DNA of 47,658 nt from positions 1 to 47,658 of the forward strand of contig JAFYNQ010000104.1 of the NCBI GenBank assembly GCA_017548065.1. The letters run 5' to 3'. This DNA is from Oscillospiraceae bacterium (GTDB taxonomy: Bacteria; Bacillota; Clostridia; Oscillospirales; Oscillospiraceae). Below are positions 13,798 to 28,700 of this stretch, piece after piece; the stretch's first letter is position 1; every line of letters begins with the position of its first letter. A program made the translations under genes and the position numbers. Below the pieces are notes generated by a model that worked only from the letters and a program-made list of their open reading frames with translations, did no database searches and was not told where the DNA came from.

Positions 13798-13861
13798 TTG
13801 GTGTTCTGTAAACCAAAAGGGGTTTTGCCGAACGCTGTCAAAAAAGAGAATATAAACAGGA

Positions 13862-13897
13862 AAAAACCCGTGCAGCCATGTGCTGACACGGGTTTTT
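13862..13897. terminator. Terminator after the thioesterase gene
   Basis: The stem AAAAACCCGTG pairs with CACGGGTTTTT (11 bp), with a small inner CAG/CTG pair in the loop. T-runs are available on both strands, so it can act bidirectionally. It ends the regulator-kinase-htrA-thioesterase operon. Confidence 0.8.
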
Positions 13898-13908
13898 GTT
13901 GTTTTGCC

Positions 13909-13938
13909 TGTGGAAAAACCTGTGGAAAGTGTTGATAA
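13909..13938. other. Cluster of DnaA-box-like 9-mers
   Basis: Three 9-mers in one orientation match the complement of the DnaA box (TGTGGATAA): TGTGGAAAA (13909, 8/9), TGTGGAAAG (13921, 7/9) and TGTTGATAA (13930, 8/9), spaced 12 and 9 bp. They lie in the 311 bp gene-free stretch 13798-14108. That stretch otherwise holds the terminator and a small hairpin at 14075-14094. No dnaA gene is nearby. It could be an origin fragment, a DnaA-titration site or chance. Confidence 0.4.
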
Positions 13939-14074
13939 CCTCGTTCACATAACCACAAAAATAACCGGGATTTTTTGCACTTATGTAAACCGCCGATTAT
14001 TTCCGAAGCAACCTGGGAAGGGCGCAATTTTTCTGCCTGAGAGACAGTGGGATCGTACCGGGCGGTTGCACGAT

Positions 14075-14094
14075 CGCCCTCTTTTGAGAGGGCG
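14075..14094. other. Hairpin downstream of immA-like gene
   Basis: CGCCCTC pairs with GAGGGCG around a TTTTGA loop. The following sequence on the plus strand (GTATTTTGC) is only weakly T-rich. It lies just past the stop codon of the convergent-side metalloprotease gene and may be a weak terminator. Confidence 0.4.
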
Positions 14095-14108
14095 GTATTT
14101 TGCTGTTA

Positions 14109-14537
14109 TCAGAAATACAGCTCCGTTGCCAGGTTGCCGTGGACGTAGAGACAGACGGCCTTTTGGATAAAGCTCTCCGTAACGCCGAAATGCTCCGCCA
14201 GCGCCCATAGCTCGGTACAGCCCAGCGCCACCGCATCGTCCAGCCGCTCCACGGGAACCAGCTTCTTCACCGCCCACTTGTCCGCGCGGTTTTCGTGGCG
14301 GCGGCGGTGATCTACGGCGGCATGGATATTATAAAAGCTGCCGGTGACACAGTGTCCCAGCTCGTGGGCAAGGTGTACACGCTCCTGAATGCCACCGTCA
14401 CGGACGCTTTCGTCCATGCCGATAAAGCAGCTGCCGTTTTCCTGCATCAGGGACATAGAGCCGGTCTTGGGCATCGGGCAGGTTAGCACCTCTATATTCT
14501 CTTGTGCAGCAAGGTCATAGAGGGACTGCAGTTCCAT
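14109..14537 (-). CDS. ImmA/IrrE-family metallo-endopeptidase (phage anti-repressor)
   Basis: 142 residues. The zinc-protease motif HELGH (LAHELGHCVTGSFY, about 65-78) and a downstream acidic/His segment (HENRADKWAVKKLV) fit the ImmA family (formerly DUF955). In ICEBs1 and related phages ImmA cleaves the ImmR repressor after a DNA-damage or mating signal. Its gene starts 2 bp after the stop of the XRE repressor gene, the usual paired order. Together they form the leftward control operon of the phage island. The target is inferred from pairing. Confidence 0.9.
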   Translation of the reverse strand: MELQSLYDLAAQENIEVLTCPMPKTGSMSLMQENGSCFIGMDESVRDGGIQERVHLAHELGHCVTGSFYNIHAAVDHRRRHENRADKWAVKKLVPVERLDDAVALGCTELWALAEHFGVTESFIQKAVCLYVHGNLATELYF

Positions 14538-14539
14538 GG

Positions 14540-14905
14540 TTAGTCCTTTCGTTTCTTCTCCTCTTCCCGGCGCTTGATAAAGGCGGCGAAATTGCGCACC
14601 TCCTGATACATCTCATCGGTGATCTCTCCGTCACCGCCGAAGAGGGCAAATTTAATATCTTCTTCTGTGATCCCCCGTGCGGCAGGATGTGCCGGTGCGG
14701 GGGATTCGTTGCCTAAAAGGTAGTCTACGGTCACGCCGAAGCAGGCAGCCAGCTTGGAAAGGGTGGCTGCGGAAAGACCGTTCTTTCTGCCCATCTTCAG
14801 GTCGGAAAGTGCGGCACGGCTGCAGTCGGCAAGGCGACACAGTTGGGTTACGGTAATTTTTCTTTCTGCGCACAGGGACTCGATGCGTTTGTACAGTTCT
14901 GACAT
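14540..14905 (-). CDS. XRE-family repressor, ImmR-like
   Basis: 121 residues starting MSELYKRIESLC; further upstream starts would run through the promoter region. The Cro/C1 helix-turn-helix domain occupies about 1-65 (ITVTQLCRLADCSRAALSDLKMGRKNG...LSKLAACFGVTVDYLLGN). The C-terminal tail (GGDGEITDEMYQEVRNFAAFIKRREEE) is typical of repressors paired with ImmA proteases. It probably binds the three TACGYANAARCGTA operators upstream and so controls both its own promoter and the rightward phage promoter. Confidence 0.9.
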   Translation of the reverse strand: MSELYKRIESLCAERKITVTQLCRLADCSRAALSDLKMGRKNGLSAATLSKLAACFGVTVDYLLGNESPAPAHPAARGITEEDIKFALFGGDGEITDEMYQEVRNFAAFIKRREEEKKRKD

Positions 14906-14940
14906 ATTGGACAGCCCTTTCTTGTACGCTTTTTGTGCGA

Positions 14941-15018
14941 TACGTAGAAACGTAAAATCTACCATTGACTTATACGTACAAGCGTAATAGAATAAAGCCA
15001 ACGGTACGCAAAAGCGTA
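14941..15018. promoter_or_regulatory. Three 14-bp operators at exact 32-bp spacing
   Basis: TACGTAGAAACGTA (14941-14954), TACGTACAAGCGTA (14973-14986) and TACGCAAAAGCGTA (15005-15018) share the dyad TACG...CGTA. Successive copies are exactly 32 bp apart, about three helix turns. The middle copy fills the spacer of the rightward promoter. Extra half-sites lie at 15053-15058 (TGCGTA, in the leftward promoter spacer) and 14925-14930. They are the likely binding sites of the XRE repressor. Confidence 0.85.
14965..14993 (+). promoter_or_regulatory. Rightward phage promoter (PR-like)
   Basis: TTGACT (14965-14970) and TAGAAT (14988-14993) are 17 bp apart, with an operator filling the spacer. The predicted start is near 15000. 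It reads into the small Cys-rich genes and the packaging and capsid operon. No internal terminator was recognised until 25624. Confidence 0.75.
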
Positions 15019-15037
15019 AATAATTTGTTACATAAAA

Positions 15038-15066
15038 ATTATATTACACCAATGCGTAAATGTCAA
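15038..15066 (-). promoter_or_regulatory. Leftward promoter of the repressor operon
   Basis: On the minus strand TTGACA (15061-15066) and TATAAT (15038-15043) are 17 bp apart, a perfect consensus, with an operator half-site in the spacer. The predicted start is near 15031. It faces the rightward promoter head-on: the two starts are about 30 bp apart and the transcripts overlap. Confidence 0.8.
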
Positions 15067-15133
15067 CCGTTTCTTTCGGTTGTTACCTTATCAGAACATC
15101 CGTCCTATAAAAAGGACAAAAAAGGAGGCGCGT

Positions 15134-15340
15134 ATGGAACCCTGGGAAGAAGAACTGGCATGGCAAAGGCAAGGGGAGCAGCTGCGACAGCGGCGCCCTC
15201 GATGCCACAGCTGTGAAAGACCCATTACCACGGAGCGGTATCTGGAGCTGTCGGCATTTGGGCTTGATGCCCGTGTTTGCGAGGACTGCGCCAGGGGCTG
15301 CTTCCGGGAGACTGTTTACGAGGAGGACTACGGAGTATGA
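15134..15340 (+). CDS. Small zinc-ribbon-like phage protein
   Basis: 68 residues behind an AAAGGAGG site. Two C-x2-C pairs are visible, CHSC at about 24-27 and CEDC at about 50-53, as in a zinc ribbon. It is the first rightward gene of the island, about 130 bp from the promoter, so it may be an early regulator. No specific family was recognised. It overlaps the next gene by 4 bp (ATGA). Confidence 0.7.
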   Translation: MEPWEEELAWQRQGEQLRQRRPRCHSCERPITTERYLELSAFGLDARVCEDCARGCFRETVYEEDYGV

Positions 15341-15558
15341 CAAGAACCTATGAAGATGCCAATGTGGGCTGTCCCTATTATAACGAGGAGGGCGCCAAGC
15401 AGATCATCTGCGAAGGTCTGCAGGACCGGGCGACGATGCAGCAGCATTTCCTCTCCCGTGGGGACAAAATGGATTTCAAAAAGCACTACTGCTGCAACGC
15501 CTGGAAATCCTGCCCCCTGACAAAAGCGTTGAATCAGAAATATAACTATGAGGCGTAA
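15337..15558 (+). CDS. Small Cys-rich phage protein
   Basis: 73 residues starting MTRTYEDANVGCPYY. Cysteines occur as C-P-Y-Y, I-I-C-E-G-L, H-Y-C-C and SCPLTKALN, a pattern seen in short proteins near terminase genes of Firmicutes prophages. It probably binds a metal ion. The start overlaps the previous stop (ATGA), suggesting coupling. The function is not known. A 25-codon frame (15548-15625) overlaps its end but lacks a ribosome site. Confidence 0.7.
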   Translation: MTRTYEDANVGCPYYNEEGAKQIICEGLQDRATMQQHFLSRGDKMDFKKHYCCNAWKSCPLTKALNQKYNYEA

Positions 15559-15653
15559 CAGCCGGATCGTTGCACACGCTGCCTCAGGCATTTATGAGGT
15601 GGCCAAGCTGCGGAGGCGCTGCTGAAGCAGTGCGTCAATTTGAAAGGAGTCCC

Positions 15654-15893
15654 ATGGATAAGAAAAACAACCAGCGTCTGAAAAAGCTTCAGGGGGTGGG
15701 AGATGTGGTCCTGGAGAAGCTGCGGCAAAGGGTGGACAGCCTGGAGCCTATGGAGATGAACCCACAGATGCTCAAGCATATGACCGGCGTGATGAAGGAT
15801 TTAAAGGACATCCTTACAACCACCGGAGAGGAGACAGGCAGCGGTGGCATCACTGTGGTGTTCACGGGAGAACTGGAGGACTACAGTGGCTAA
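15654..15893 (+). CDS. Small phage protein, possibly terminase small subunit-like
   Basis: 79 residues behind a GAAAGGAGT site. Residues 1-60 are predicted mostly helical (RLKKLQGVGDVVLEKLRQRVDSLEPMEMNPQMLKHMTGVMKDLKDIL), with no recognisable helix-turn-helix. It lies directly before and overlaps the large terminase by 8 bp, the place of a terminase small subunit. That role is inferred from position only. The overlap suggests coupled translation. Confidence 0.65.
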   Translation: MDKKNNQRLKKLQGVGDVVLEKLRQRVDSLEPMEMNPQMLKHMTGVMKDLKDILTTTGEETGSGGITVVFTGELEDYSG

Positions 15894-17286
15894 AACCCTT
15901 GCCATACAGATGCCCTCCCCACGGCAAAAGACGTTTCTTACCGCAACCACACGGCACATCGGCTTCGGCGGCGCCCGTGGCGGCGGCAAAAGCTGGGCAG
16001 TGCGGACAAAAGCCAAGCTGCTGGCGCTGCGCTACCCCGGCATTCGCATTCTCATTGTCCGCCGCACCTACCCGGAGCTGATCAACAACCACATCCGCAT
16101 TCTCTGCCAGGAGCTGTCCGGCATCGGGGAGTACCACGACCGGGACAAGCTCATAGCCTTTCCCGGTGGCAGCATCATTCAGTTTTCCTACTGCGACCGG
16201 GACACCGACCTGGATCGGCTTCAGGGTGTGGAATACGATGTGATCTTCCTGGACGAGGCCACCCAGCTGTCGGAGTATCAGATGAAGACCATCACCGCCT
16301 GCCTGCGAGGCGTCAACGATTTCCCCAAGCGGATCTACTACACCTGCAACCCCGGCGGCCAGGGGCATCAGTACATCAAGCGAATTTTCATTGACCGAAA
16401 ATACCGGGATGGGGAAGACCCTCGGGACTATACCTTTATTCAAAGCCTTGTGACCGACAATCATGCCCTGATGAAGACCCAGCCGGACTACGTAAAGCAG
16501 CTGGAGGCGCTGCCCTATAAGCTGCGGCAGGCATGGCTTCACGGTCGCTGGGACATTTTTGAGGGTCAGTTTTTTGAGGAGTTTCGGGAGTCCCCGGATC
16601 TTGCCATGTGCGAGAAGGCAGGCATCACCCCGGAGCTTGCCAAAAAGCAAGGGCGCTGGACCCATGTGATAGAGCCCTTTGATATCGGCAGCGGCGCCTG
16701 CCGTGGGTGGACACTGTACCGCAGCTATGACTTTGGCTATGCCAAGCCCTTTTCCTGCGCCTGGTGGGCGGTGGATCATGACGGCACGCTGTATCGGATC
16801 ATGGAGCTGTACGGCTGCACGGAAAACCCCAACGAGGGCGTGAAATGGACGCCGGACAGACAGTTTCAGGAGATCGCCCGGATTGAACGGGAGCATCCCT
16901 GGCTGCGAGGCAGACAGATCCTGGGTGTGGCAGACCCTGCCATCTGGGACGTGTCCCGGGGCGAGAGCATTGCCGACACGGCCATCCGCTACGGTGTGTA
17001 TTTCACCCCCGGTGACCATGCCCGTGTCAGCGGCTGGATGCAATGCCACTACCGACTGCAGTTTGATGAAAACGGCTATGCCCGTTGCTATGTGTTTGAC
17101 AACTGCAAGGGCTTTATCCGCACCGTACCCACACTGCGCTATGACACCAACCGCCCGGAAGACCTGGACACCGCCGGGGAAGACCACATCGCCGACGAAT
17201 GGCGCTATCTGTGTATGTCCCGCCCGGTGCAGCCCATCCGGGAAGCAGCCCCCAGGGGTCTGCTCAATGACCCGTTGCGCAGCTGA
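15886..17286 (+). CDS. Phage terminase large subunit
   Basis: 466 residues with a GTG start at 15886, supported by a GGAGGA site 6 nt upstream inside the preceding gene. The ATPase domain has Walker A GGARGGGKS (28-36) and Walker B VIFLDEA (D123, E124), followed by a TCNPGG coupling-type motif. The C-terminal nuclease domain shows YDFGYAKPF and GVADPAIWD acidic residues. It would power DNA packaging into the capsid and cut concatemers. Length and motifs look intact, so the enzyme should be functional. Confidence 0.95.
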   Translation: MAKTLAIQMPSPRQKTFLTATTRHIGFGGARGGGKSWAVRTKAKLLALRYPGIRILIVRRTYPELINNHIRILCQELSGIGEYHDRDKLIAFPGGSIIQFSYCDRDTDLDRLQGVEYDVIFLDEATQLSEYQMKTITACLRGVNDFPKRIYYTCNPGGQGHQYIKRIFIDRKYRDGEDPRDYTFIQSLVTDNHALMKTQPDYVKQLEALPYKLRQAWLHGRWDIFEGQFFEEFRESPDLAMCEKAGITPELAKKQGRWTHVIEPFDIGSGACRGWTLYRSYDFGYAKPFSCAWWAVDHDGTLYRIMELYGCTENPNEGVKWTPDRQFQEIARIEREHPWLRGRQILGVADPAIWDVSRGESIADTAIRYGVYFTPGDHARVSGWMQCHYRLQFDENGYARCYVFDNCKGFIRTVPTLRYDTNRPEDLDTAGEDHIADEWRYLCMSRPVQPIREAAPRGLLNDPLRS

Positions 17287-17320
17287 ATGACAGATTTCTT
17301 TGAAACGAAAGGAGAAAACG

Positions 17321-19120
17321 ATGGAAGAAAATAAGATTGCCCAAACGGGTGTTACAGAGGACACTGTCCGTATGTTTTCCGAGCTTTTGGAGCGCTATAA
17401 GGCAGGCAAAAGCAGCACGGAGCAGCGGATCATTTCCAGTGAAAACTGGTGGAAGCTTCGTAACACCACCGAGGAAGAAAAGGAGGATGCCATCCGCAGT
17501 GACGGCTTTGTGAGCCGCTCCGGCTGGCTGCACAACGTGATCGTCAGCAAGCATGCAGATGCGGTGGAGGCATACCCCGAACCCAACATCCTCCCCCGTG
17601 AGGCAGGCGATGTGACCGAGGCGCAGCAGCTGACGGCCATTATCCCCTGCGTGCTGGAGCAAAACCGCTTTGAGCAGGTGTGGTCGGATGTGATCTGGCA
17701 GAAGCTGAAGACCGGCACCGGCGTTTACAAGGTGGTATGGGACACCGGGAAGCTGGGCGGACTGGGTGACATCGGCATTCAGAGGGTGAATCTTCTGAAC
17801 CTCTATTGGGAGCCGGGTATCACGGATATCCAGAAAAGCCGCTATCTGTTCCACACGGAGCTTTGGGAGAAGGATGTGCTGCTGCAGCATTACCCCCAGG
17901 TGCAGGACAAGCTGCAGGACGGTAATTTTGTAGGCGCAAAATTCCTCTATGACGATACGGTGGATGAAACGGACATGGTCACGGTGGTGGATGTGTACTA
18001 CCGCAAAAACGTAGAGGGCAGACAGATCCTCCACTACTGCAAATTCGTGGGTGATACCGTTCTTTATGCCACGGAAAATGACCATGAGGCGGTGGCGGAT
18101 GTAAACGGTGTGTCCCGACCTGCGCCTGCGGAGGCAGGTCTTTACGATCACGGTCAGTACCCCTACGTGTTTGACGTGCTGTACCCCATTGAGGGAAGCC
18201 CCTGCGGCTACGGCTATGTGGATCTTTGCCGCAATCCTCAGACGGAAATTGACATTCTGAAAACCGCCTTCGTGAAAAATGCCCGTGTGGGCGCTGTTCC
18301 CAGGTATTTCTCCCGTGTGGACGGTAATGTGAACGAGGAGCAGTTCCTGGACCTGGAGCAGGCGCTGGTGAAGGTCACCGGCAACGTGGACGAGGCGACA
18401 CTGCGAAAGATCGAGCATAACACCCTGGACGGCAACTATATCGCCATGCTGGACCGTACCATTGACGAGCTGCGGCAGACCTCCGGCAACACGGAGACCA
18501 GCACCGGCACGCCCACCAGCGGTGTCACCGCTGCCTCTGCCATCGTGGCCTTGCAGGAGGCTTCCGGCAAGGGTAGCCGTGATTCCACTTTGGCATCCTA
18601 CCGTGCCTTCAGCAGCATCGTGGAGCTGTGCATTGAGCTGATCCGTCAGTTCTACGGCATGCCCCGACAGTTCCGCATCACCGGCAACCGGGGCGGCATG
18701 GACTTTGTGACCTACACCAACCGAGGCCTGCAGCCTGCGGAGCAGCCCGGCTTCGGTCAGGAGGGTATGCGCCTGCCGGTGTTTGATATCAAGATCTCTG
18801 CGCAGAAAAAGAATGTGTACACCAAGGTCAGTCAGAATGAGCTGGCGCTGCAGTTTTTTCGCCTGGGCTTCTTTGCCCCGGAAATGGCAAGCCAGGCCAT
18901 GCTGTGCCTGGAAATGATGGATTTTGACGGCAAGGAGCGGATTTTGCAGCGGCTTTATCAAAATGCTGCCATGCCCATGGGGGGGATCCCCGGCGGTGAA
19001 GGGGAAAGTCTTCCCCGTTCCGACCCCTTCTACGGCATCACACGAAAGGAGCATGCCCTGGTGCAGAAGGCACGGGAGGGCGCAGCCAATGCGGCACAGC
19101 CCAAAGGAGGTGACCTATGA
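17321..19120 (+). CDS. Phage portal protein
   Basis: 599 residues from the ATG at 17321 (AAAGGAG site). The protein has the length and composition of P22/N4-like portals. The conserved middle (DVLYPIEGSPCGYGYVDLCRNPQTEIDIL, positions about 290-318) and the later helical stem region (YIAMLDRTIDELRQTSG) match the family in type. Portals form the dodecameric DNA channel at one capsid vertex. It is located between terminase and the Prp-like protease. The stop overlaps the next start (ATGA). Confidence 0.88.
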   Translation: MEENKIAQTGVTEDTVRMFSELLERYKAGKSSTEQRIISSENWWKLRNTTEEEKEDAIRSDGFVSRSGWLHNVIVSKHADAVEAYPEPNILPREAGDVTEAQQLTAIIPCVLEQNRFEQVWSDVIWQKLKTGTGVYKVVWDTGKLGGLGDIGIQRVNLLNLYWEPGITDIQKSRYLFHTELWEKDVLLQHYPQVQDKLQDGNFVGAKFLYDDTVDETDMVTVVDVYYRKNVEGRQILHYCKFVGDTVLYATENDHEAVADVNGVSRPAPAEAGLYDHGQYPYVFDVLYPIEGSPCGYGYVDLCRNPQTEIDILKTAFVKNARVGAVPRYFSRVDGNVNEEQFLDLEQALVKVTGNVDEATLRKIEHNTLDGNYIAMLDRTIDELRQTSGNTETSTGTPTSGVTAASAIVALQEASGKGSRDSTLASYRAFSSIVELCIELIRQFYGMPRQFRITGNRGGMDFVTYTNRGLQPAEQPGFGQEGMRLPVFDIKISAQKKNVYTKVSQNELALQFFRLGFFAPEMASQAMLCLEMMDFDGKERILQRLYQNAAMPMGGIPGGEGESLPRSDPFYGITRKEHALVQKAREGAANAAQPKGGDL

Positions 19121-19440
19121 TCAAGGTGATCTATGACCGCTCCGCAAGGCGCCTGACAGCCACCGGTCACGCAGGTCAGGGCGCGCCGGGACATGACCTG
19201 GTGTGCGCCGCCGTGTCGGCGCTGGTGCTGACACTGGCAAGCAACGTGGCTACCCTTGCCACACAGAACAGTCTCCGCCGCCAGGAGCTGAAGATCAAAG
19301 AAGGGGATGCCTGCATCAGCTGCATCCCGGAGAACAAAATGCGTGCGGTGGTGACGATGGTTTTTGATACCGTCTGCTCCGGCTTTGAACTGCTGGAGAC
19401 ACTGTACCCGGAAAATATCACATTTACGGTAATTGCATAA
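19117..19440 (+). CDS. Prp-like cysteine protease (phage-borne)
   Basis: 107 residues. It shows the family dyad: H18 in TGHAG and C30 in DLVCAAVSAL, at the spacing known for Prp. Cellular Prp removes an N-terminal extension from ribosomal protein L27 at an LQFFA-type motif. In some staphylococcal phages the same host enzyme matures scaffold and capsid. Here the gene sits between portal and scaffold, and both scaffold and capsid proteins carry an LQLFA motif near their N-termini. A role as the island's own capsid protease follows well from this but is untested. Its start overlaps the portal stop by 4 bp. Confidence 0.88.
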   Translation: MIKVIYDRSARRLTATGHAGQGAPGHDLVCAAVSALVLTLASNVATLATQNSLRRQELKIKEGDACISCIPENKMRAVVTMVFDTVCSGFELLETLYPENITFTVIA

Positions 19441-19513
19441 ACACAAGTATATATGGCCATGGGCTTTATATAGGACTCGCCGCCCTGAAGCGGCAGAAAG
19501 GAATCGGGAGAAT

Positions 19514-20284
19514 ATGAAAAAATGGGAAAGAAGCTATCTTCAACTGTTTGCTGAAGGCGACAGCGGCGCAGGGGAAGCAGCTTCCGAAACGGGCGAAAAC
19601 AGTGCCGTCGCCGGGCACCAGGAGGCTGCCGCTGCCCCCAGAATGACCTGGGAGGAGATTAAGGCAGACCCGGAATACAGCCGTCATATGCAGGAAATGG
19701 TGCAAGCTCGCCTGAAAAATGTGAAGCAGGCGGGGGAGCATATGGAGCTGCTGCGACCGGCGCTGACCGTGATGGCAACGGCCTACGGGCTTGACCCGGA
19801 GCAGCCGGATTACGGCGCGCTTGCCAAGGCAGTGACCGAGGACAGCCGCTACCGCAAGGATGACACCCATCTGCGTGCCCACTATGACAGCTTGGTACGG
19901 CAGGAGAAGCAGCTGCAGGCAAAGTACCCCGACTTTAACCTGCGCAACGAGATGCAAAACCCGGTATTCGTGCGGCTGACCGCCCCGGAGACCGGCATCT
20001 CCCTGGAGGATGCTTACTACACGGTGCATCGTCGGGAGATCCAGCACAGCGCCATTGAGGCGGCATCCCGTGAGACGGCCAGCCGTATCTCCAATGCCAT
20101 TCGGTCCGGCACTGCCCGACCGGTGGAAAACGGCACTGCAGCCACTGCTGCTGCCGTCACCGCCTTTGACTATCGCAAGGCCAGTCCCCAGCAGCGCAGT
20201 GCGCTGAAGGCAAAGATCCGTCAGGCGGTAGCCCGGGGAGAAAAGCTCTACCCGGGTAGCGTTCCCTATGGGGTAAAGAAATAA
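19514..20284 (+). CDS. Phage scaffold protein with Prp cleavage motif
   Basis: 256 residues starting MKKWERSYLQLFAEGDSG. The YLQLFA motif (8-13) resembles the L27 cleavage site. The body is Glu/Ala/Gln rich and highly charged, mostly helical, with a low-complexity N-terminal region after the motif, as in scaffolds. The C-terminus is basic (KAKIRQAVARGEKLYPG), which could contact the capsid. Its place between protease and major capsid genes supports the call. A GGGAG site lies 5' of the ATG. The 73 bp before it contain only a short hairpin. Confidence 0.85.
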   Translation: MKKWERSYLQLFAEGDSGAGEAASETGENSAVAGHQEAAAAPRMTWEEIKADPEYSRHMQEMVQARLKNVKQAGEHMELLRPALTVMATAYGLDPEQPDYGALAKAVTEDSRYRKDDTHLRAHYDSLVRQEKQLQAKYPDFNLRNEMQNPVFVRLTAPETGISLEDAYYTVHRREIQHSAIEAASRETASRISNAIRSGTARPVENGTAATAAAVTAFDYRKASPQQRSALKAKIRQAVARGEKLYPGSVPYGVKK

Positions 20285-20309
20285 CGATCTGTAAAAAAGG
20301 AGAATGTTT

Positions 20310-21413
20310 ATGGAAAACAAGTTTATGTATCTGCAGCTGTTTGCCGATGGCGGCAGCGTGGTGAACACCACCACCGGCTATGTCAATGCCAACACCGGCG
20401 CCCACACCGATTTCGGTGGCACCAATGCCGCCGGTCAGGTGAACACCCTCAGCGATGAGCTGAAGACCTTCTACGACACCGAGCTGCTGGAAAATGCAAA
20501 GGTGGAGATGTTCTACGCCCAGTTTGCCAAGCGTCAGAATCTGCCCAAGAACCGTGGTACCACCGTGGAGTGGCGCAAGTGGAACACCTTTGACAAGGCA
20601 GAGACACTGCAGGAAGGTGTGATCCCCGAGGGTCAGAAGTTCGGCATGAGCTCCCGTACCGGTGCGATCAACCAGTACGGTACTTACGCTGCCATTTCCG
20701 ACAAGCTGGAGATGCGTGCCTATGATGACACCATTCTGGGCGCCACCGAGGAGATGGGCGCTTCTGCGGCAGAGACCCAGGAAATCCTGATCCGTGATGC
20801 GCTGCTGGAGAACACCAATGTCATGTACTGCGAGAATGTGGATGGCGACGGCAACGTTGTGGGCGCAACTCCCACCGCCTGCAGCGAAATGGCTTGCAGC
20901 GAGGCATCCATGAGTACCCTGACCCCCGACATGGTGGCAAAGGCCGTGACCAAGCTGAAGAAGGACAAGGTTCCCACCATCGGCGGCAAGTACTGCGCTG
21001 TGATCCATCCCTCTGTGGCTTACGATCTGCGTAAGAGCAAGGAGTGGGTGGAGGCACACAAGTATGCGCAGCCCGGTGAGATCTACAACGGTGAGATCGG
21101 TGAGCTCCACGGCTGCCGCTTTGTGGAAAATGTGTTTGCCCCCGTGCTGGGCGGTGATGACTACGTTAACGCTGCCGGCGGCGTGACCTATGCCACCTAT
21201 TTCTTCGGCAAGGATGCCTTCGGCATCATTGATCCCGAGGGCGGCGCACTGGAGATGATCGTCAAGGACAAGAGTCAGATCGGCGGTCCTCTGAACCAGT
21301 ATTCCACCATCGGCTACAAGCTGGAGACCAACGGTGCAACCATTCTGTACCCCGAGCGCATTCTGCGTCTGATGAGCTGCTCCAGCTTCTCTTCCACCGA
21401 CGAAGAGAACTAA
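20310..21413 (+). CDS. Major capsid protein, N4-gp56 family
   Basis: 367 residues. I chose the ATG at 20310 because the AAAAGGAG site is 7 nt away; the ATG at 20304 is too close. The N-terminus MENKFMYLQLFADGG carries the LQLFA motif (8-12). The region LSDELKTFYDTELLENAKVEM and then FAKRQNLPKNRGTTVEWRKW fits the N4-gp56 group of HK97-fold capsid proteins. Cleavage after the motif would leave a mature protein of about 355 residues. This is a well-conserved, apparently intact structural gene. Confidence 0.93.
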   Translation: MENKFMYLQLFADGGSVVNTTTGYVNANTGAHTDFGGTNAAGQVNTLSDELKTFYDTELLENAKVEMFYAQFAKRQNLPKNRGTTVEWRKWNTFDKAETLQEGVIPEGQKFGMSSRTGAINQYGTYAAISDKLEMRAYDDTILGATEEMGASAAETQEILIRDALLENTNVMYCENVDGDGNVVGATPTACSEMACSEASMSTLTPDMVAKAVTKLKKDKVPTIGGKYCAVIHPSVAYDLRKSKEWVEAHKYAQPGEIYNGEIGELHGCRFVENVFAPVLGGDDYVNAAGGVTYATYFFGKDAFGIIDPEGGALEMIVKDKSQIGGPLNQYSTIGYKLETNGATILYPERILRLMSCSSFSSTDEEN

Positions 21414-21423
21414 AAACAAAAAC

Positions 21424-21449
21424 GTAGGGGAGGCATTCATGCCTCCCAC
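21424..21449. repeat. REP-like intergenic repeat, copy B, inside the capsid operon
   Basis: GTAGGG is followed by GGGAGGCAT and its exact complement ATGCCTCCC around a 2-nt centre. It shares the GTAGGG start and the GCATTCATGC core with copy A at 165-190, which is in ordinary chromosome. It lies between the capsid gene and a small downstream gene. The hairpin could lower downstream expression. Confidence 0.6.
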
Positions 21450-21480
21450 TACCAACTGCTTTAAGAAAGGAAAGAAGATC

Positions 21481-21690
21481 ATGGAAAAAGAAAAGCGTGA
21501 GAAGGTATTTGTGCCCCGTGGGGCATCCAACGAAGAGCCCAATCTGTTCATCAGCGTCAACGGTGTGAACTACCTGCTGCCCAAGGGCAAGGAATCTCTT
21601 GTACCTGTGGCTGTGGCAAAGGAGTACCGCCGCAGCCAGGCGGCAAGGGAGCGCAGTGACATCTCCGGCAGACGGCTCATGAGCAAGTAA
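21481..21690 (+). CDS. Small phage structural-region protein
   Basis: 69 residues, strongly charged, starting MEKEKREKVFVPRG. The central SVNGVNYLLPKGKESLVPVAVAKEY segment resembles short proteins that follow capsid genes in Firmicutes prophages. Those proteins have no known role; capsid decoration or head completion is possible. A GAAAGGAAAG site precedes the ATG. No membrane segment or Cys is present. Confidence 0.7.
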   Translation: MEKEKREKVFVPRGASNEEPNLFISVNGVNYLLPKGKESLVPVAVAKEYRRSQAARERSDISGRRLMSK

Positions 21691-21712
21691 GAAGAAAAAG
21701 GAGGCGGTTGCC

Positions 21713-22084
21713 ATGAAATTGATGGAGGCCATTGCCCGCATCGATGAATTGAAGCACAACACCTACACAAGAGAAGACAAGCTCCGGTGGCTTTCCAATC
21801 TGGACGGTATGGTGAAGCACCAGGTCATTGACACCCATGCCGGTGCGGAGACGGTGTCTTTTTCCGGCTATGACGAAAACACACCGTCGGACACTGTCCT
21901 GCTGGTGCCTGCCCCCTATGACGAGCTGTATCTGTGGTGGCTTTCTGCGCAGATTGATTTTTACAACGGGGAATTTGCCCGTTATAACAATTCCATTGCG
22001 CTGTTCAACACGGGTTACGCTGTGTACAAGGAGCTTTACCACCGGAACAACACACCCCTGGGCAGCACCACCGGGTTTTATTAA
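21713..22084 (+). CDS. Phage head-tail connector (adaptor-like) protein
   Basis: 123 residues behind an AAAGGAGG site. It is mostly helical with the pattern MEAIARIDELKHNTYTREDKLRWLSNLDG and VPAPYDELYLWWLSAQIDFYNGEFARYNNS. Such small helical proteins after the capsid gene act as head-completion or adaptor proteins in many phages. The assignment rests on size, helical character and position, not on a catalytic motif. It lies 12 bp before the nozzle-like gene. Confidence 0.65.
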   Translation: MKLMEAIARIDELKHNTYTREDKLRWLSNLDGMVKHQVIDTHAGAETVSFSGYDENTPSDTVLLVPAPYDELYLWWLSAQIDFYNGEFARYNNSIALFNTGYAVYKELYHRNNTPLGSTTGFY

Positions 22085-22096
22085 AGGAGGCATTTT

Positions 22097-23935
22097 GTGA
22101 AGCTACCGAAATTGCAGCAGCTCCCCGTAAGCAGACAGACCCTGGAGGTCTTCGGGGGCTATAATCACAATCTGCGCATCGGCGACGGGGAGTTTTATGA
22201 AATGGAGAATATGACCTCCGGGCATTACCCCGTCCTCTCTCCCAGGGCGCCCAGAGGTAAGCTGTCCCAAAGCGCCCAGGCGCTGGTGAGCAGCCACGGT
22301 CTTTGCCGTGTGGAAAACAGACGGTTTTATCTCCCCGACGGCACCGATGCCGGTGTGACACTGGACTACGGAGAGAAGCAGCTGGTGACCATGGGCGCTT
22401 ACGTGATCGTGCTGCCGGACAAGGTGTGGATCAACGTTTCCGACACCGGGCAGGCGGAGCGCAGCGGCCCGATCGAGGCAGTTTTTTCTGCCACCGAAGG
22501 GGAATTTCTCTTTGAGCCCTGCCGGGCAGACGGCACGGTTTACAGCAATATTTCCGAGGAAGAGCCGAAAGACCCCACAGACGGACAGATGTGGCTGGAT
22601 ACCACCGGGGAATACCCGTCCTTGAAGCAGTGGACGGATACCGGGGGCATGTGGATCGCCGTTGCCACCGGCTATGTCCGTGTGCAGATGACGGGCATCG
22701 GCGAGAATTTTGAAAAGGGCGACAGCGTGCAGGTGCGGCTGAAGGGTGTGCCTTTGAGCTGGAAAAATGCGCTTCGCTTTATTGGTGAAGTGACACGCCT
22801 GGATGATGCCGAGGCCATAGAGCGGCGCTACGGTGAGCTGTGCGCCACCTGGGTGATCCGGGATCTGAGCTTTGATTCCCTGATCATCTCCGGCTACCTG
22901 GGGCTGCCTGCCTGCAAGGGCAAGCTGGGCAGCGGCAGCGATGCCTACCCCGGTTCGGTGGCGGTGGAGCGTGTGCTGCCGGATATGGACTTTGTGATCG
23001 AATGCGGCAACCGTCTTTGGGGCTGCAAATACGGAGCCGCAAGGTACGGCTTCGTCAATGAGATCTATGCCTCCAAGCTGGGAGATTTCAAGAATTTCAA
23101 AAGCTTCCAGGGCATTTCCACTGACAGCTACACCGTTTCCATCGGCGCAGACGGCCCCTTCACCGGCGCTGTCAGCTACATGGGCAGACCGGTGTTCTTC
23201 AAGGAAAACTGTATGCTGGAGGTGTACGGCAGCTATCCTGCCGCCTATCAGCTGCAGGTGACACCCTGCGAGGGTGTGCAGGCAGGCAGCCACAAAAGCC
23301 TTGCCATTGTGGACAATGTTCTGTATTACAAATCACGCAGCGGTATCTGCGCCTATGACGGCACAATGCCTTCCCAGGTGGGGCAGGCGCTGGGAGATAC
23401 CCTCTACGAAAATGCCATTGCCGGCGGTTGGGGCAGAAAGTATTATGTCAGCATGTATGCCCCGGAGGAGGCGGCTCGCAGCCTCTTCGTGTATGACAGC
23501 AGCCGCAGACTGTGGCATCGGGAGGACGCACTGCCTGTAAAAAGCTTCTGCTTCTGCGGAAATACGCTGTATGCCCTGACAGAGGATGACACCATCCTCA
23601 CCCTGGACGGCAGCGGAGAAACAGATCAGCAGCCGGTAAAATGGATGGCGCAGACCGGCAAGATCGGTCTGCAGCTGCCGGAAAGTAAATATGTGTCGGG
23701 ACTGACCCTTCGGCTATCCATGAAGCTGGGTTCGGTGGTGTCGGTGTACGCAAGCTATGATTCCCAACCGGGCTGGGAGCATCTGTATACCCTCCGTGGC
23801 ACATCCCTTGGCAGTGTCACTCTGCCGCTGCGCCCCCGACGGTGTGACCACATGCAGCTTCGCCTGGAGGGTACGGGAGAGATGAAGCTGTATTCCATTA
23901 CCAAGACCCTGGAGCAGGGAGGTGACGGTCAGTGA
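22097..23935 (+). CDS. Phage tail nozzle-like protein (putative beta-propeller)
   Basis: 612 residues with a GTG start 5 nt after an AAAGGAGG site. It begins with a short conserved segment (FGGYNHNLRIGDGEFYEMENMTSG) and is otherwise beta-rich. Repeated short blade-like segments are present (CGNRLWGCKYG, MGRPVFFKENCMLEVYG, VDNVLYYKSRSGICAYDG, FCGNTLYALTEDDTILTLDG), which suggests a beta-propeller. Short-tailed phages use such propellers in their tail nozzle (T7 gp12, P22 gp10). The nozzle assignment is an inference from fold pattern and position after the connector. No tape-measure, sheath or long-tail gene was recognised in the island. Confidence 0.6.
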   Translation: MKLPKLQQLPVSRQTLEVFGGYNHNLRIGDGEFYEMENMTSGHYPVLSPRAPRGKLSQSAQALVSSHGLCRVENRRFYLPDGTDAGVTLDYGEKQLVTMGAYVIVLPDKVWINVSDTGQAERSGPIEAVFSATEGEFLFEPCRADGTVYSNISEEEPKDPTDGQMWLDTTGEYPSLKQWTDTGGMWIAVATGYVRVQMTGIGENFEKGDSVQVRLKGVPLSWKNALRFIGEVTRLDDAEAIERRYGELCATWVIRDLSFDSLIISGYLGLPACKGKLGSGSDAYPGSVAVERVLPDMDFVIECGNRLWGCKYGAARYGFVNEIYASKLGDFKNFKSFQGISTDSYTVSIGADGPFTGAVSYMGRPVFFKENCMLEVYGSYPAAYQLQVTPCEGVQAGSHKSLAIVDNVLYYKSRSGICAYDGTMPSQVGQALGDTLYENAIAGGWGRKYYVSMYAPEEAARSLFVYDSSRRLWHREDALPVKSFCFCGNTLYALTEDDTILTLDGSGETDQQPVKWMAQTGKIGLQLPESKYVSGLTLRLSMKLGSVVSVYASYDSQPGWEHLYTLRGTSLGSVTLPLRPRRCDHMQLRLEGTGEMKLYSITKTLEQGGDGQ

Positions 23936-24447
23936 GTATGGACATCCGACCGCCCCTGATCACGGGGCAGACCCTGGGTGAGCAGGTGCAGCAGCTGATC
24001 GCCTACCTGACACGGCTGGCACGGCAGCTGCAGACCCTGCCGGAGAACCAGCCTGCGGAGGTAAAAGTGGCGGAGGAGATCGCCCGTCCCGGCAGTGTGC
24101 AAAAGCTGCGTGTGCATAAGGAGCTGACGGTGGAAGGGGGCATAAACGGTGTCAGCATCCGGCAGGTGAAGGTGTGGGGCTCTACGGAATTTCTTTTGAA
24201 AACTCGGTTTTCTCACTGGAACGGCGACGGCAATGTGCGCCAAAGCCTGCTGGTGGCAGGCTGCATGAACAGCAACCCTCTGCTGGGGGTGGTGCGTGTC
24301 AGCAGCAACGGCAGCTGTCAGTGGGAAGGTACGCAGGGTGTTACTGTCAGTACCCGGGGGGAGGGCGTTTTGTGCGTGAAGCTGCCGGTGACACTGTATG
24401 AGCATCTGCTGGTCATGTCCCCCAATGAATTTAACCATATCGTATAA
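23932..24447 (+). CDS. Phage protein of unknown function
   Basis: 171 residues. The likely start is the GTG at 23932, which overlaps the previous stop (GTGA) and is 9 nt from GGGAGG; an ATG two codons later is possible. The N-terminal part (about 10-45, LGEQVQQLIAYLTRLARQLQTLP) looks like a helical coil. The remainder is beta-rich. A helix followed by a beta domain would suit a tail-tip or fibre component, but no family was recognised. Confidence 0.65.
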   Translation: MSMDIRPPLITGQTLGEQVQQLIAYLTRLARQLQTLPENQPAEVKVAEEIARPGSVQKLRVHKELTVEGGINGVSIRQVKVWGSTEFLLKTRFSHWNGDGNVRQSLLVAGCMNSNPLLGVVRVSSNGSCQWEGTQGVTVSTRGEGVLCVKLPVTLYEHLLVMSPNEFNHIV

Positions 24448-24458
24448 GGAGTGAGAAA

Positions 24459-25589
24459 ATGGCAGATTATCCTACGCTGCGTTACGGCAGCACCGGCGAA
24501 GAGGTTCGGAAGCTGCAGGAGGCGCTGAATGCCGCCGGCAGCTATGCCCTGGCGCTGGACGGTATTTACGGCGAAAAAACGAAGCAGGCAGTCACGGCCT
24601 ATCAGAAGGCAAACGGCTTGGGTGTGGATGGTATTGCCGGTCGGGAGACACTGGGTCACCTTTACAGCGCCGACAGTTCCAACACCCAAAACAGCCAGAC
24701 CACGGAAAAAGAGCCTACACCCTGGGAAAAATGGGTAAACCGGGAGTCTTTTTCCTATGACCCGGAGAAGGACAGCCTTTATGAGCAGTATCGGGAGCAG
24801 TACCTGAACCTGGGACGGCTGGCAATGGAGGACACCATGGGCAAGGCAGCGGCGCTGACCGGTGGCTACGGCAACACCTACGCAGAGACAGCTGCCCAGC
24901 AAAGCTATGGGGCATACCTGCAGCAGCTGAGCGGCATGATCCCGGAGCTGTATGACAGAGCTTATGAGCGGTATGCCGCAGAGGGAGAGGCGCTGTACAA
25001 GGAGGCGCTTGCCTATGAAAATCGCCGCCAGCAGGCCTACAGTGAGCTGGAAGGTCTGGTGGAGGCAGGGTATGACCCCACAAATGAGGAGCTGGAAGCA
25101 GCAGGTATGACAAGACAGCAGGCAAATGCCATTGCCTCTGCCGCTGCCGCCGCCAGAACCACCACCTACAGATCCTCCGGCGCAACCAAAACAAGCAGCA
25201 GCACCACCCAGTCCGAGGAATTGCCAAACCCCGATGCCATGGGACTGACAACGGAGGAGATCAAAGCGCTGCAGCGTGTGGCAGGCGTGAAGGTCACGGG
25301 TGAGTGGAATGAGACCACCGCAAGAGCCTACCTGGATGGCTACCGCCCCGGCTCTTCCACCCGAATAGAGGCATTCCTGGAGAGCCTGCCCCCGGAATCT
25401 GCGCATGATACCATCCAGCGTGCGATTTGGGGCAATTACCGTTACTACCTGCTGGCGCATATTATGGCCTCCACCAAGCTGCGCACGGCAGAAAAGGACT
25501 ATTTGATCCAGCAGTACGGCTTCACCATGCAGGAGCGGAACTATGTGAAAAACCACAGATTGGACAAGCGTGCAGAAAAGCTGCTGTAA
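24459..25589 (+). CDS. Peptidoglycan-binding-domain protein at the end of the phage operon
   Basis: 376 residues. The N-terminal PG_binding_1 domain (about 3-68) has the LRYGSTGEEVRKLQEALNAAG...LDGIYGEKTKQAVTAYQKANGLGVDGIAGRETL signature. A helical middle (about 100-230, Ala/Glu/Tyr rich) follows. A second, shorter copy of the motif is at about 258-295 (TTEEIKALQRVAGVKVTGEWNETTARAY). No amidase, muramidase or peptidase motif is visible, so it may be a structural wall-binding protein (for example a tail-tip or release factor) rather than an endolysin. It is the last gene before a terminator. Confidence 0.75.
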   Translation: MADYPTLRYGSTGEEVRKLQEALNAAGSYALALDGIYGEKTKQAVTAYQKANGLGVDGIAGRETLGHLYSADSSNTQNSQTTEKEPTPWEKWVNRESFSYDPEKDSLYEQYREQYLNLGRLAMEDTMGKAAALTGGYGNTYAETAAQQSYGAYLQQLSGMIPELYDRAYERYAAEGEALYKEALAYENRRQQAYSELEGLVEAGYDPTNEELEAAGMTRQQANAIASAAAAARTTTYRSSGATKTSSSTTQSEELPNPDAMGLTTEEIKALQRVAGVKVTGEWNETTARAYLDGYRPGSSTRIEAFLESLPPESAHDTIQRAIWGNYRYYLLAHIMASTKLRTAEKDYLIQQYGFTMQERNYVKNHRLDKRAEKLL

Positions 25590-25623
25590 CCGAGATTTGG
25601 ATAAAATTACTAAAATTATAGAA

Positions 25624-25648
25624 TTTCCTCCCCGGTTTGGGGAGGAAA
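25624..25648 (+). terminator. Terminator of the phage operon
   Basis: TTTCCTCCCC pairs with GGGGAGGAAA (10 bp) around GGTTT, followed by an A/T-rich stretch. It lies 35 bp past the last phage gene. The T-run on the plus strand is short, so efficiency may be moderate. Confidence 0.6.
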
Positions 25649-25695
25649 AATTTACATAATTCAAAAAATATTGGCTATAAAAAATGCCTCGGTTG

Positions 25696-25704
25696 TGCTA
25701 TAAT
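25696..25704 (+). promoter_or_regulatory. Extended -10 promoter of the beta-helix/MBL gene
   Basis: TGC-TATAAT (25696-25704) lies 35 bp before the start codon. No good -35 is found at 16-18 bp. It is preceded by an A/T-rich tract that could act as an UP-like element. Confidence 0.55.
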
Positions 25705-25739
25705 GTATTATGCGTAAAAATAGCATAGGAGGTATTTCC

Positions 25740-28700
25740 ATGAAAAAGAAGCTGCTCGTTTTGTTTCTGGCAGTTGTGGCGCTTTTCAGCGTGCTGGTGT
25801 TTAACGTCAGCGCAGCAGAAGAAGCAGCACTGCCGGAAATCTGTCCCTATTGTAACAAGTCTGTTACATGGGAGCCTTTGACTGAGGCAAACGCAGAGGA
25901 TGTTGCGGTTGCCGGCGGTCACCGTTACCTGGCTTTTGAGGGTGACGAGGCCATTTGGTCTACAAAAAGTATTCCCAAGACCGTTTGTCTGTACATGAAC
26001 GGCAAGACCTTGATCTCCCCAGAGGGCATTGGTCGTGTGTTCACGATTAAGGGTACACTGAACTTGATCGGTGAAGGTACGGTCAAGGGTCGCGGTTTTT
26101 CCAGTACCGAAAGTTTTGGCGGCGCAATTAATGTCACCGGTACGCTGAATGTTTACGGTACTACCGTGACCACCACCGCTGAATCGGGCCGTACTGCAGG
26201 CCGTGGCGGTGTTGTGTACCTCTCCGGCGATGCATCTGTACTGAATCTGTACAGCGGTAATATTATTGGCGGTAGAGCTGCAAACGGTGGTACTCTGACG
26301 GTTGACGGCGTTGCCAATATTTACGGTGGCACCCTGGGCGGCGGTACTGCAACAGCTGCAGGCGGCGCTGTCTATATCCGTGACGGCGGCACATTGAATG
26401 TTATGGGCGGCACGATCGAGGGCGGTACTGCAAAGACCACCGGCGGTGCGATCCATTCCCATGAACAGGCCAATTTGTATATCTCCGGCGGTACAATTAA
26501 GGGTGGCGAATCCACCAAAAATGGCGGTACTCTTTATGTGAACAACATTAAGGGCGGCGAAGTCATCATGTCCGGCGGTAAGATCGAAGGTGGTTACTCC
26601 GGCAATGCCGGTGGCGCTGTGTATATCATAGGCGGCGCTACCTTTGAAATGACCGGCGGTAAGATCACCGGCGGCTCTGCCAAGACCACCGGCCCTTGCG
26701 TTTATGTACCTGATAATGCAAAGATCATCCTCTCCGGCAGCGCATCTATTGAAGAATTGCGTTTCAATAGCTATGAGGCAAACCGTGTGCTGGTGAAGGG
26801 TAAGTGCACCGGTTCTGTTCTGTTCCGTGGTGCTACCGGTCAGGCTGTTGACGGTGCAATTGTGGGTGTTGCCGAGGAAGGCGCTGACCTGCATAAGGCA
26901 AGCTATACAGTACATAACACAGAATTGACACTGGTCACGGAGGGTACCGATGTGAAAATGTCCAGTGTTGGCTATATCGACATTATGGACAGCCACATTG
27001 GCTACTGTGAGGCTTGTGACAAGCAGGTCACATGGCTGTCTTATGCGGATGTAGATTACGAAAACGCAACCTATATCTACAGCGGTCACTACTATGTGGT
27101 ATCCGATGAGGATGTTGTTAATTGGAAACTGAAGTACATCGTGGGCGATGATGTTGTTTGCCTTGACCTGATGGGCAAGCAGCTGGTTGGCTCTTCCCGT
27201 GCCTTTGATGTTACCAAGGGTGTGTTGAACATCATGGACTCCGTGGGCGGCGGCTCTGTTACGGCTTGCGGTCCTACCAATGTTGAAACTGTTTACGGCG
27301 GCGTGTTCTTCGTCCGTGAGCCCAGTACATTGAATCTTTATAGCGGTAAGCTGACCTATACCCTTCCCACCGATGGCCGCAGCTACGTTGCCCGTGGTGG
27401 CGTTGTTTACTGCCGTGGTGCGCTGAATGTGTACGGCGGCGAGATTTCCGGCGGCGCAGCAAAAGCCGGTGGCAATGTCTATATTGATGCTGCAGCTGAC
27501 TATGTTGGTCACATGGGCTTGTACGGTGGTCTGGTTGGTGCGAATGTAAAGGTTCCCGGCGCATCCACCTCCGGCCCTTGCATCGTAAACCGTGGTACAC
27601 AGACCCTCTCCGGCAACGGCACGGCCAGCGCCCTTTTGATGTCTAATGCCAAAGGCTACACCCCTGCGCTGGCAGAGCGCATTACCATTGACGGCGCTTA
27701 CACCGGTAGCGTTGCCATTACCCTCAGCGAGTGGGATGGCACCATTGACATTGGTACTGCTGTGAATGCTGATGTCTCCGGTTGTAATGTTACCTTTGCC
27801 TCCAACGAAGCAAAGGGCGGTAAGCTGGTGATCGCTGACGGCCAGCTGTTCGTCCTGCACAACGAGCCTGCTGCGCTGGTACGCACCACCGCAGGCGCCT
27901 ATACTGTGTATGCAACGGCAGCCGAGGCTGTTGCCGCTGCCGGAAGTGAAAATCTTGTGATCCTGCTGGCAAATGCAGAGAACATCGCAGTTGAGGGCAT
28001 GGTTCATATGGATCTCAACGGCTTTGCTGTTAACGGCGCTGCCGGCGCCGGCACCCTGGTGTGCAAGGACAGCGCAACCGATGACTTCACTGTGGCTGAC
28101 GGCGCTTACGGCTGTGTCACCGGCGCAACCTGCCAGGTGGCAGGCATGACCGTTGCCTCTCCCTGCGGTGAGGACAACTACCTGATGGTCACCGAAAACG
28201 GCGCAGCTTCCTTCCACCGTGTGCAGCTGACCATTGCGGAGGCTGTATTCCGTCCCGCAGCTGCCGGTATCTACTACAAGTGCAGCTTCCTGGGCGACGA
28301 GAAGGTAGCCGCTCTTGTTAAGAACGTGGGCATCGTGCTGAACGCTTCCGAGGCTCCCACCCTGGCAAATATGGAGACCACCTCTCTGTACACCCAGCAG
28401 GGCGCAGAGCTGTTTGGCGCAACCGGCACCAGCTGCCTGCTGGCCGATGTGCTGAAGGCTGACCTGGCTGACGCAGAGAACCTGGCACGTGCTACCACCG
28501 ACGTCTACGCCAACGCTTATATTACCACCGTAAACGGTGAAGTCCTGCTGGGCAACACCGTATGCACCAACCTACAGGAGCAGGTAAACACCATTGATGC
28601 AAACTGGACTTACATGACCATCCAGCAGAAGGCAGCCTTTATGGATATGTACTATGCATACCAGGCTCTGCTGGCAGGCGAAGGCTGGTCTGTGACCAAT

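Follow-up and report, generated by a model that had tools for sequence, protein, structure and literature searches.

A compact phage-derived capsid and packaging block in an Oscillospiraceae genome, a candidate operon of a podovirus-type gene transfer agent

Genes and control region of the block

The stretch of DNA analysed here (the window) is the 47,658-bp contig C93 (JAFYNQ010000104.1) of the 2.46-Mb draft genome of an Oscillospiraceae bacterium (GCA_017548065.1; 126 contigs, 88.9% complete). At positions 14109–25589, it carries a block of 15 tightly spaced genes, 2 leftward and 13 rightward, with phage-type capsid and packaging genes behind a divergent repressor/protease pair, which we read as a candidate operon of a gene transfer agent (GTA). 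The left part of the block (14109–16000) is present as a single copy in the genome. In what follows, numbers with G, C and L are our handles for genomes, contigs and loci. The block and its control region are laid out as follows.

14109..14537, minus strand: ImmA-like M78 peptidase (anti-repressor protease), Pfam PF06114, E = 4.8e-5; 65% identical to the protein of L034 and 71% to those of L051 and G302
14540..14905, minus: ImmR-like Cro/CI repressor, PF13443, E = 3.3e-10; ATG start, with the frame open to 15001
14941..15018, no strand: three operator-like palindromes TACGYNNNNRCGTA at 14941, 14973 and 15005, spaced by exactly 32 bp
14965..14993, plus: promoter-like site facing the particle operon and overlapping the middle palindrome, 10/12 consensus
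15038..15066, minus: promoter-like site facing the repressor and ImmA, 12/12 consensus TTGACA-17-TATAAT (sigma-70-type)
15134..15340, plus: first small Cys-rich protein, 68 aa; apart from the window copies, its only matches in the fetched loci are in L034 (49%), L051 (49%) and G302 (57%)
15337..15558, plus: second small Cys-rich protein, 73 aa, of a family also found upstream of the large terminase in phage-type loci (tblastn matches in many of them)
15654..15893, plus: small terminase TerS, 79 aa, lacking the N-terminal segment; aligned to the TerS of L371
15886..17286, plus: large terminase TerL, 466 aa, PF04466, E = 2.8e-11; phrog_979, E = 5e-43
17321..19120, plus: P22-type portal, 599 aa, PF16510, E = 6.8e-29; phrog_156, E = 1.6e-74
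19117..19440, plus: Prp-type cysteine protease, PF04327, E = 6.2e-15
19514..20284, plus: scaffold, 256 aa, short form, with the frame open from 19433; phrog_13908 ("unknown function"), E = 1.5e-26, named by position
20304..21413, plus: major capsid protein, phrog_1357, E = 1.2e-64
21439..21690, plus: small conserved protein after the capsid gene, 83 aa, phrog_15239, E = 1.4e-5
21713..22084, plus: head-tail connector candidate, 123 aa, phrog_12105 ("unknown function"), E = 3e-38, role by position
22097..23935, plus: nozzle/tail-hub candidate, 612 aa, phrog_511 (annotated "internal virion protein"), E = 3.2e-67
23932..24447, plus: fast-evolving 171-aa protein, with homologues in L032 (43%) and L034 (34%)
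24459..25589, plus: peptidoglycan-binding protein (PGB), 376 aa, last gene of the unit, PF01471, E = 1.4e-23

An earlier note, made from the letters of this DNA, had named most of these genes. All of those it named are open frames, and none of the 15 genes of the block shows a broken frame, the mark of a decaying prophage. Its ImmR/ImmA, terminase, portal, Prp, capsid and peptidoglycan-binding calls are supported by Pfam and PHROG profiles. The connector and nozzle calls stand in part: both proteins belong to phage families (phrog_12105 and phrog_511), and the second is still a nozzle candidate, with 47 columns invariant across 22 aligned sequences and no credible match of its profile among solved structures. 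The portal profile matched the solved portal 8jov weakly (E = 1.5e-4). The small terminase, which the note had left unnamed, is the 79-aa frame at 15654–15893. The 171-aa protein has no PHROG or Pfam match, five small proteins of the block fall into no Pfam family, and a Pfam scan found no catalytic domain in PGB.

Neither the block nor the ten flank genes scanned contain a recognisable integrase; nine of the ten, lying on both sides, have host-type families, including a histidine kinase, HtrA, an acyl-ACP thioesterase, a cation efflux protein and DegV. Within the block, no replication gene, holin or catalytic lysin was recognised, and no frame or profile corresponds to a tail sheath or tube, a tape measure or another long-tail gene, as the note had said. 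The block is not a whole phage and seems incapable of moving or copying itself.

The TACGYNNNNRCGTA palindromes lie between the repressor gene and the rightward operon; the window contains 3 of them, against 0.07 expected from its shuffles. Promoter-like sites as a class are not above chance (6 found versus 5.8 expected in 13700–25800). In ICEBs1, an ImmR/ImmA pair reacts to DNA damage. Given the three regularly spaced palindromes, the facing promoter-like sites and the ImmR/ImmA pair, the switch that would control the block looks intact.

Several features lie close to the block. Just beyond the immA end, two overlapping hairpins (14060–14096) are terminator-like on the plus strand. Directly after the element, 25740–29714 encodes a protein of about 1324 aa that looks secreted and combines a repetitive part with a metallo-beta-lactamase domain, and another large secreted-looking protein follows the related element in L228. 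Between the response regulator and histidine kinase genes, an exact 26-bp direct repeat, 39 bp apart, occupies 10212–10276. An Rfam scan returned two tRNAs only.

Phage-type and compact relatives

Relatives of the block are widespread. Nozzle searches matched 43 of 200 genomes of the family and portal searches 15 of 61 genomes of the genus, and at E 1e-20 or better a portal profile matched 60 of 394 genomes of the order, across 33 of 168 genera. Capsid searches gave 73 stretches in genome contigs and 171 in viral contigs, 80 of which were kept; the PGB query found no match in the viral contigs. According to their gene maps, the loci are of two kinds. In phage-type loci, TerS is preceded by many genes, and genes encoding about 1000–3750 aa often lie near the module, whereas in compact loci a divergently oriented repressor/ImmA pair lies a few genes before TerL.

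Podophage-type loci occur both in the same genus (G135:C35, G222:C39, G207:C105 and G248:C108) and in viral contigs (L371, L045 and L055). They share homologous TerL, portal, Prp, scaffold, capsid, connector, nozzle and PGB genes with the window, mostly in the same order, but differ in their many upstream genes, in a TerS that mostly keeps the N-terminal segment and in a longer scaffold and portal. The function of the upstream genes was checked in two loci, L371 and G135. L371 encodes a replisome organiser (PF09681, E = 7e-30), a dUTPase and a methylase; G135 encodes an SMC-type ATPase, a PAPS-reductase-type protein and a DNA methylase, with no replication family in the six upstream proteins scanned. 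Labelling the G135 genes as replication genes from their size and place was therefore rejected, as Pfam gives no backing. Because phage-type relatives carry replication or metabolism genes beside the homologous module, the genes of the block derive from podophages.

In a tree of TerL and portal from 162 loci, the window groups with L032, L034 and L051 (support 1.0). L034 matches the block in all 15 genes and in their order, at a portal identity of about 72% and in a different neighbourhood. Over 8696 bases, L279 and L034 are 99.99% identical, and a single gap breaks the capsid frame in L279 and not in L034. PGB is the last gene in L279 as well, followed by a promoter-like stretch and a lipoprotein-like frame that look host-type by eye; the left end of L034 likewise resembles host coding sequence by eye. 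L051 has no match to the second Cys-rich gene and carries a 215-aa frame in its place. More generally, compact relatives without replication or phage-metabolism genes form well-supported clades, so the window copy is more than an isolated fragment torn from a phage. The earlier note had regarded an integrase, replication and lysis module contiguous with the block in close relatives, or strong frameshift decay in other strains, as findings that would count against a domesticated element. The outcome is divided. Phage-type relatives do carry replication or metabolism genes beside the module (L371, and metabolism genes in G135), yet the compact clades are well supported; a fusion and deletion are seen in G302, and all 15 frames of the block are open.

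Two side observations concern other compact loci. In L032 (5045–5382 and 6510–6827; also in L033), near-identical repeats of about 45–106 bp flank the capsid gene. A third clade (support 0.61) comprises L237, L224, L255, L266, L260, L222, L246 and L278; recurrent genes of about 260–275 aa, and in several also about 590 aa, lie at its left flank, perhaps marking another fixed locus, and the TerS of L237, L255 and L260 is 77–85 aa long and lacks the N-terminal segment.

The small terminase distinguishes the window and its closest relatives. The window TerS, which has no Pfam family, aligns only to residues 67–156 of its 157-aa counterpart in L371 (24% identity, E = 1e-7 in a single comparison), and it scores 0 bits against a profile of the N-terminal part, which, going by the usual anatomy of TerS, we take to be the DNA-recognition helix-turn-helix (HTH). 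Its length of 79 aa is close to that in L032 (78 aa), L034 (75 aa) and L051 (75 aa, or 131 aa if translation begins at an in-frame start further upstream, still without the segment), so that the truncation is common to all four members of the clade. Among 131 non-redundant loci of 160, a low profile score (below 15 bits) was obtained for 15 of the 28 compact ImmR/ImmA loci and 7 of the 41 phage-type loci (Fisher p = 0.003, uncorrected for kinship), as well as for 26 of the 62 loci whose context is unclear; one of the 15 compact loci, L244, scores 14 bits and keeps the segment by eye. The scaffold is also shorter in compact loci, with a median of 246 aa (n = 27) versus 336.5 aa (n = 36) in phage-type loci, as is the portal (616 versus 655 aa), whereas the capsid protein has an equal length (363.5 aa, n = 26, versus 364 aa, n = 35). 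The shorter scaffold may give compact elements a smaller head.

A second compact clade, separate from the window clade and not its sister, lies beside the threonine synthase gene thrC (Thr_synth_N). It comprises L251, L244, L228 and others, 27 tips in all (support 1.0), with thrC visible in 20. As in the window, an ImmA/HTH pair diverges from a run of Cys-rich, TerS, TerL, portal, Prp, scaffold, capsid, connector and nozzle genes; unlike in the window, PGB precedes the scaffold, and fibre-type, lysin and holin genes follow the nozzle wherever the flank is present (those of L251 encode a tail-fibre-like protein, a GH25 lysozyme and a Hol44 holin). This clade, too, has no recognisable integrase or replication gene, and a 485-aa gene beside it that had been considered a serine recombinase turned out to be threonine synthase itself. 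Members differ in TerS, some keeping the N-terminal segment and others having lost it.

The thrC linkage is best seen in genus g5 (102 genomes), where 22 genomes have a best portal match of at least 71% and the portal lies 3.2–3.8 kb from thrC in 21 of them; the contigs of the 22nd, G399, are broken, and G392, with split portal matches (68 and 72%), was left out of the count. G369 shows thrC-ImmA-HTH-TerL up to its contig end. Beside thrC in G413 (L464, G413:C72), we found ImmA, HTH, an endolysin-type gene and holins and no head genes, a loss that reflects either decay or an assembly gap. In eight other g5 genomes examined, with a more distant thrC, no element lies beside it. For 13 element genes, protein distances follow those of thrC (Spearman 0.68–0.93, 9–21 species per gene); none of 999 permutations reached the observed value for 11 genes, and 1 and 8 of 999 did so for two holins. 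Compared with thrC, TerL and capsid evolve slowly, at median ratios of 0.67 and 0.58. The ratio of nonsynonymous to synonymous change (dN/dS) is 0.01–0.27 in eight close pairs, save G387/G402, where it reaches 0.73, and the clade is under purifying selection. This element matches the expected look of a long-kept GTA and, with 21 species, is the strongest GTA candidate that we found.

A separate lysis cassette and the residence of the block

The GTA of Faecalibacterium (FpGTA) was reported in January 2026 (Borodovich et al. 2026, PMC12946183). It consists of two unlinked operons, one for head and packaging and the other for baseplate, fibre, receptor binding, holin and endolysin, and we therefore searched the genome of the window for lysis genes. 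An amidase query matched peptidoglycan-binding parts only. With a holin query, a single weak match (E = 0.08, 33%) appeared on the 9441-bp contig C13 (locus L486), which led to the following features.

G000:C13:4793-7484, leftward: isolated fibre/lysis cassette between tsaE/upp and thrE
within it, leftward: fibre with a collagen repeat, phrog_10972, E = 7e-24
within it, leftward: Amidase_3 endolysin with peptidoglycan-binding repeats, E = 3e-25
within it, leftward: XhlA-like protein, 74 aa, phrog_1863
within it, leftward: 60-aa protein read as a holin, phrog_13256 (unknown function)

C13 and the window agree in base composition, each with a GC content of 0.548, and the tetranucleotide make-up of C13 correlates with that of the left flank at r = 0.94. 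Among 136 genomes of the genus, the best other match of its amidase (65%) is in G302, where an ImmA-HTH-Cys-nozzle-PGB unit is immediately followed by the amidase gene and by XhlA-like (75%) and holin-like (69%) genes. This arrangement ties a C13-type cassette to a window-type element, the Cys-rich gene of G302 being of the kind seen elsewhere only in the window, L034 and L051 among all loci fetched, and the C13 cassette may, by analogy with FpGTA, serve the operon of the block.

How long the block has resided in its host was also considered. The note had argued for long residence from a host-type repeat inside the block. That repeat was not reproduced, since a comparison of the block with the remainder of the window (k = 14, both strands) gave only isolated identical stretches of at most 17 bases, at 26 positions. 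The tetranucleotide make-up of the block correlates with that of the left flank at r = 0.917, compared with 0.922 between the two flanks; as the block matches its flanks in composition, long residence stays plausible. An empty site was sought around the neighbouring thioesterase gene. Of the 54 other genomes of the genus with a thioesterase match, 20 were inspected around that gene, and none of these 20 shows a block gene; the thioesterase could be labelled in 18 of them, the downstream genes differ throughout and contigs end within about 1.6 kb in G212, G233 and G211, so that no exact attachment site is definable from the 20 regions. No att-type direct repeat stood out at the block ends among the 20 listed of at least 60 repeat families. 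A XerD-half-like string seen by eye near 13983 had raised the idea of Xer/dif integration without an integrase; it was dropped, as one dif-type pattern has no match in the genome at up to 3 mismatches.

Within the window clade, dN is below dS in all comparisons where both are computable. Against L032, dN and dS are 0.089 and 0.85 for TerL, 0.137 and 0.92 for the portal, and 0.113 and 0.48 for the capsid protein; against L034, the corresponding values are 0.133 and 1.00, 0.229 and 1.21, and 0.138 and 0.55. The nozzle, connector, 171-aa protein and PGB evolve faster than TerL, portal and capsid.

Interpretation and comparison with known systems

We read the block as operon I of a podovirus-type GTA resembling FpGTA, with a probability of roughly two in three; if so, the bacterium may send its own genes to its kin in particles made by the block. 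A GTA-like agent is favoured over a phage remnant because the 15-gene unit is shared, the TerS truncation is common to the clade, the switch looks intact and a separate cassette exists, and it gains further support from the related thrC-linked clade, which is inherited with its host. Of the four options raised in the note (a domesticated particle-forming element, a satellite, a GTA-like locus or a defective short-tailed phage), the GTA-like or domesticated one is thus backed by TerS, the recurring unit, the C13 cassette and the thrC clade, and the satellite has become less likely.

A number of observations pull the other way. By TerL, the window clade is present in 1 of 136 genomes of the genus, the nearest other TerL being 69% identical, and it is not fixed at one locus, because the neighbourhoods differ among the window, L034/L279 and G302. 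The dN/dS values of this clade are weak evidence, because dS (0.48–2.08) is near saturation for many genes. The phage-type L371 combines a TerL 78% identical to that of the window with a replisome organiser. As for the small terminase, a Pfam scan of the L371 protein named no HTH, and 13 of 28 compact loci keep the segment while 7 of 41 phage-type loci score low, by a profile that was seeded from 25 stretches of the same loci through a motif of our own setting and that other TerS types may escape. Such elements do decay: in G302, the first Cys-rich gene is fused in frame to the nozzle gene and everything from the second Cys-rich gene through the connector is lost, and single stops interrupt the portal of G415, one of the 21 thrC-linked copies, and the portal region of L271. 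The link between C13 and the block rests on analogy and on G302, whose nozzle is only 42% identical to that of the window, no closer than phage-type nozzles; no block palindrome was seen by eye upstream of the cassette, and related amidase/XhlA/holin cassettes end loci that look siphovirus-type by eye (L521, G293:C41; L526, G271:C9; L532, G275:C10). The latter three loci could also represent a second type of domesticated particle in the genus.

One rival is a defective prophage remnant, a recent integrant whose left (integrase and replication) and right (large virion protein and lysis) modules were deleted and which is still undecayed. The same-genus phage-type relatives (G135, G222, G207 and G248) have many more upstream genes and some very large genes close to the module, the window copy stands alone in its genus by TerL, and G302 shows a deletion in a window-type copy. 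We nevertheless consider a remnant unlikely: in L034/L279, whose portal identity is about 72%, the unit stops after the same last gene, which makes two independent deletions improbable, the frames and palindromes of the block are intact and the truncated TerS is common to four clade members. It is quite improbable that the block is instead a capsid-encoding, cfPICI-like satellite mobilised by podophages of the same family, which would supply replication, fibres and lysis. Its own capsid, terminase and repressor, and the candidate helper phages in the same genus, would fit such a satellite. Satellites of the cfPICI type are expected to carry an integrase and replication genes of their own, however, and neither was recognised in the block; its TerS lacks the N-terminal segment, and the host genome holds an endolysin/holin/fibre cassette. 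A PBSX-like killing particle, whose heads filled with host DNA would bind and harm kin without delivering genes, has the same gene logic as a GTA, and fast-evolving nozzle, 171-aa and PGB proteins would suit target specificity; with no contractile or long-tail gene recognised, we regard it as very improbable.

A GTA-like agent encoded by the block might work as follows. The ImmR-like repressor would shut the divergent promoters through the three operators until DNA damage or another stress leads ImmA to cut it. The operon would then make small heads with portal, connector and nozzle. The truncated TerS would no longer recognise a phage packaging site, so that TerL could pack headfuls of any host DNA, while the unlinked operon II on C13 (fibre, amidase endolysin and two holin-like genes) would provide fibre and lysis. 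The particle could finally deliver host DNA to other cells.

On a broader scale, we propose tentatively, at somewhat less than an even chance, that one gut and rumen podophage family was turned into GTAs several times in Oscillospirales-type bacteria. In each case, integrase and replication genes would have been dropped, the scaffold shortened (with smaller heads) and ImmR/ImmA kept, with TerS tending to lose its recognition segment. One clade would have kept its place next to threonine synthase across at least 21 species, the window would represent one such agent split over two loci, and these would be the missing operons behind GTA-like packaging in faecal Oscillospiraceae particles. If this is true, the window and its kin supply gene sets to test for GTA-like packaging, TerS truncation and scaffold shortening recur within one phage family, and the fixed-locus clade allows the selective value of gene transfer to be studied.

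Among known systems, the GTA of Rhodobacter capsulatus (RcGTA) is siphovirus-like. Known GTAs have a TerS without a specific DNA-binding domain (PMC11841831; see also PMC6854486 and PMC7947584), and RcGTA resembles the window in a TerS lacking the N-terminal DNA-binding domain, in the lack of replication genes and in phage-derived heads, but belongs to Alphaproteobacteria and has other regulators. Among the matches listed in the open-licence PMC literature, we found no further description of elements such as these. FpGTA is the closer counterpart. It shares with the window (PMC12946183) a podovirus-type operon of about 10 kb with TerS, TerL, portal, scaffold and capsid genes and no replication genes, and a second operon at another site for lysis and fibres, which in the window genome would be the C13 cassette; the likeness is one of gene content and layout. 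The TerS of FpGTA has no obvious DNA-binding domain, and FpGTA packages 8.4–8.9 kb of random host DNA. The window differs in having its own ImmR/ImmA switch with three operator-like palindromes, a Prp protease and PGB; the words "repressor" and "ImmA" are absent from the main text of the FpGTA paper. FpGTA operon I is present in 12 of 12 Faecalibacterium genomes examined there, in contrast to the single genome of the genus with the window clade. The same report describes GTA-like packaging in Oscillospiraceae (Onthomonas) and reports a strong candidate operon only in Faecalibacterium (PMC12946183). With FpGTA in print, the kind of element to which we assign the block is already known.

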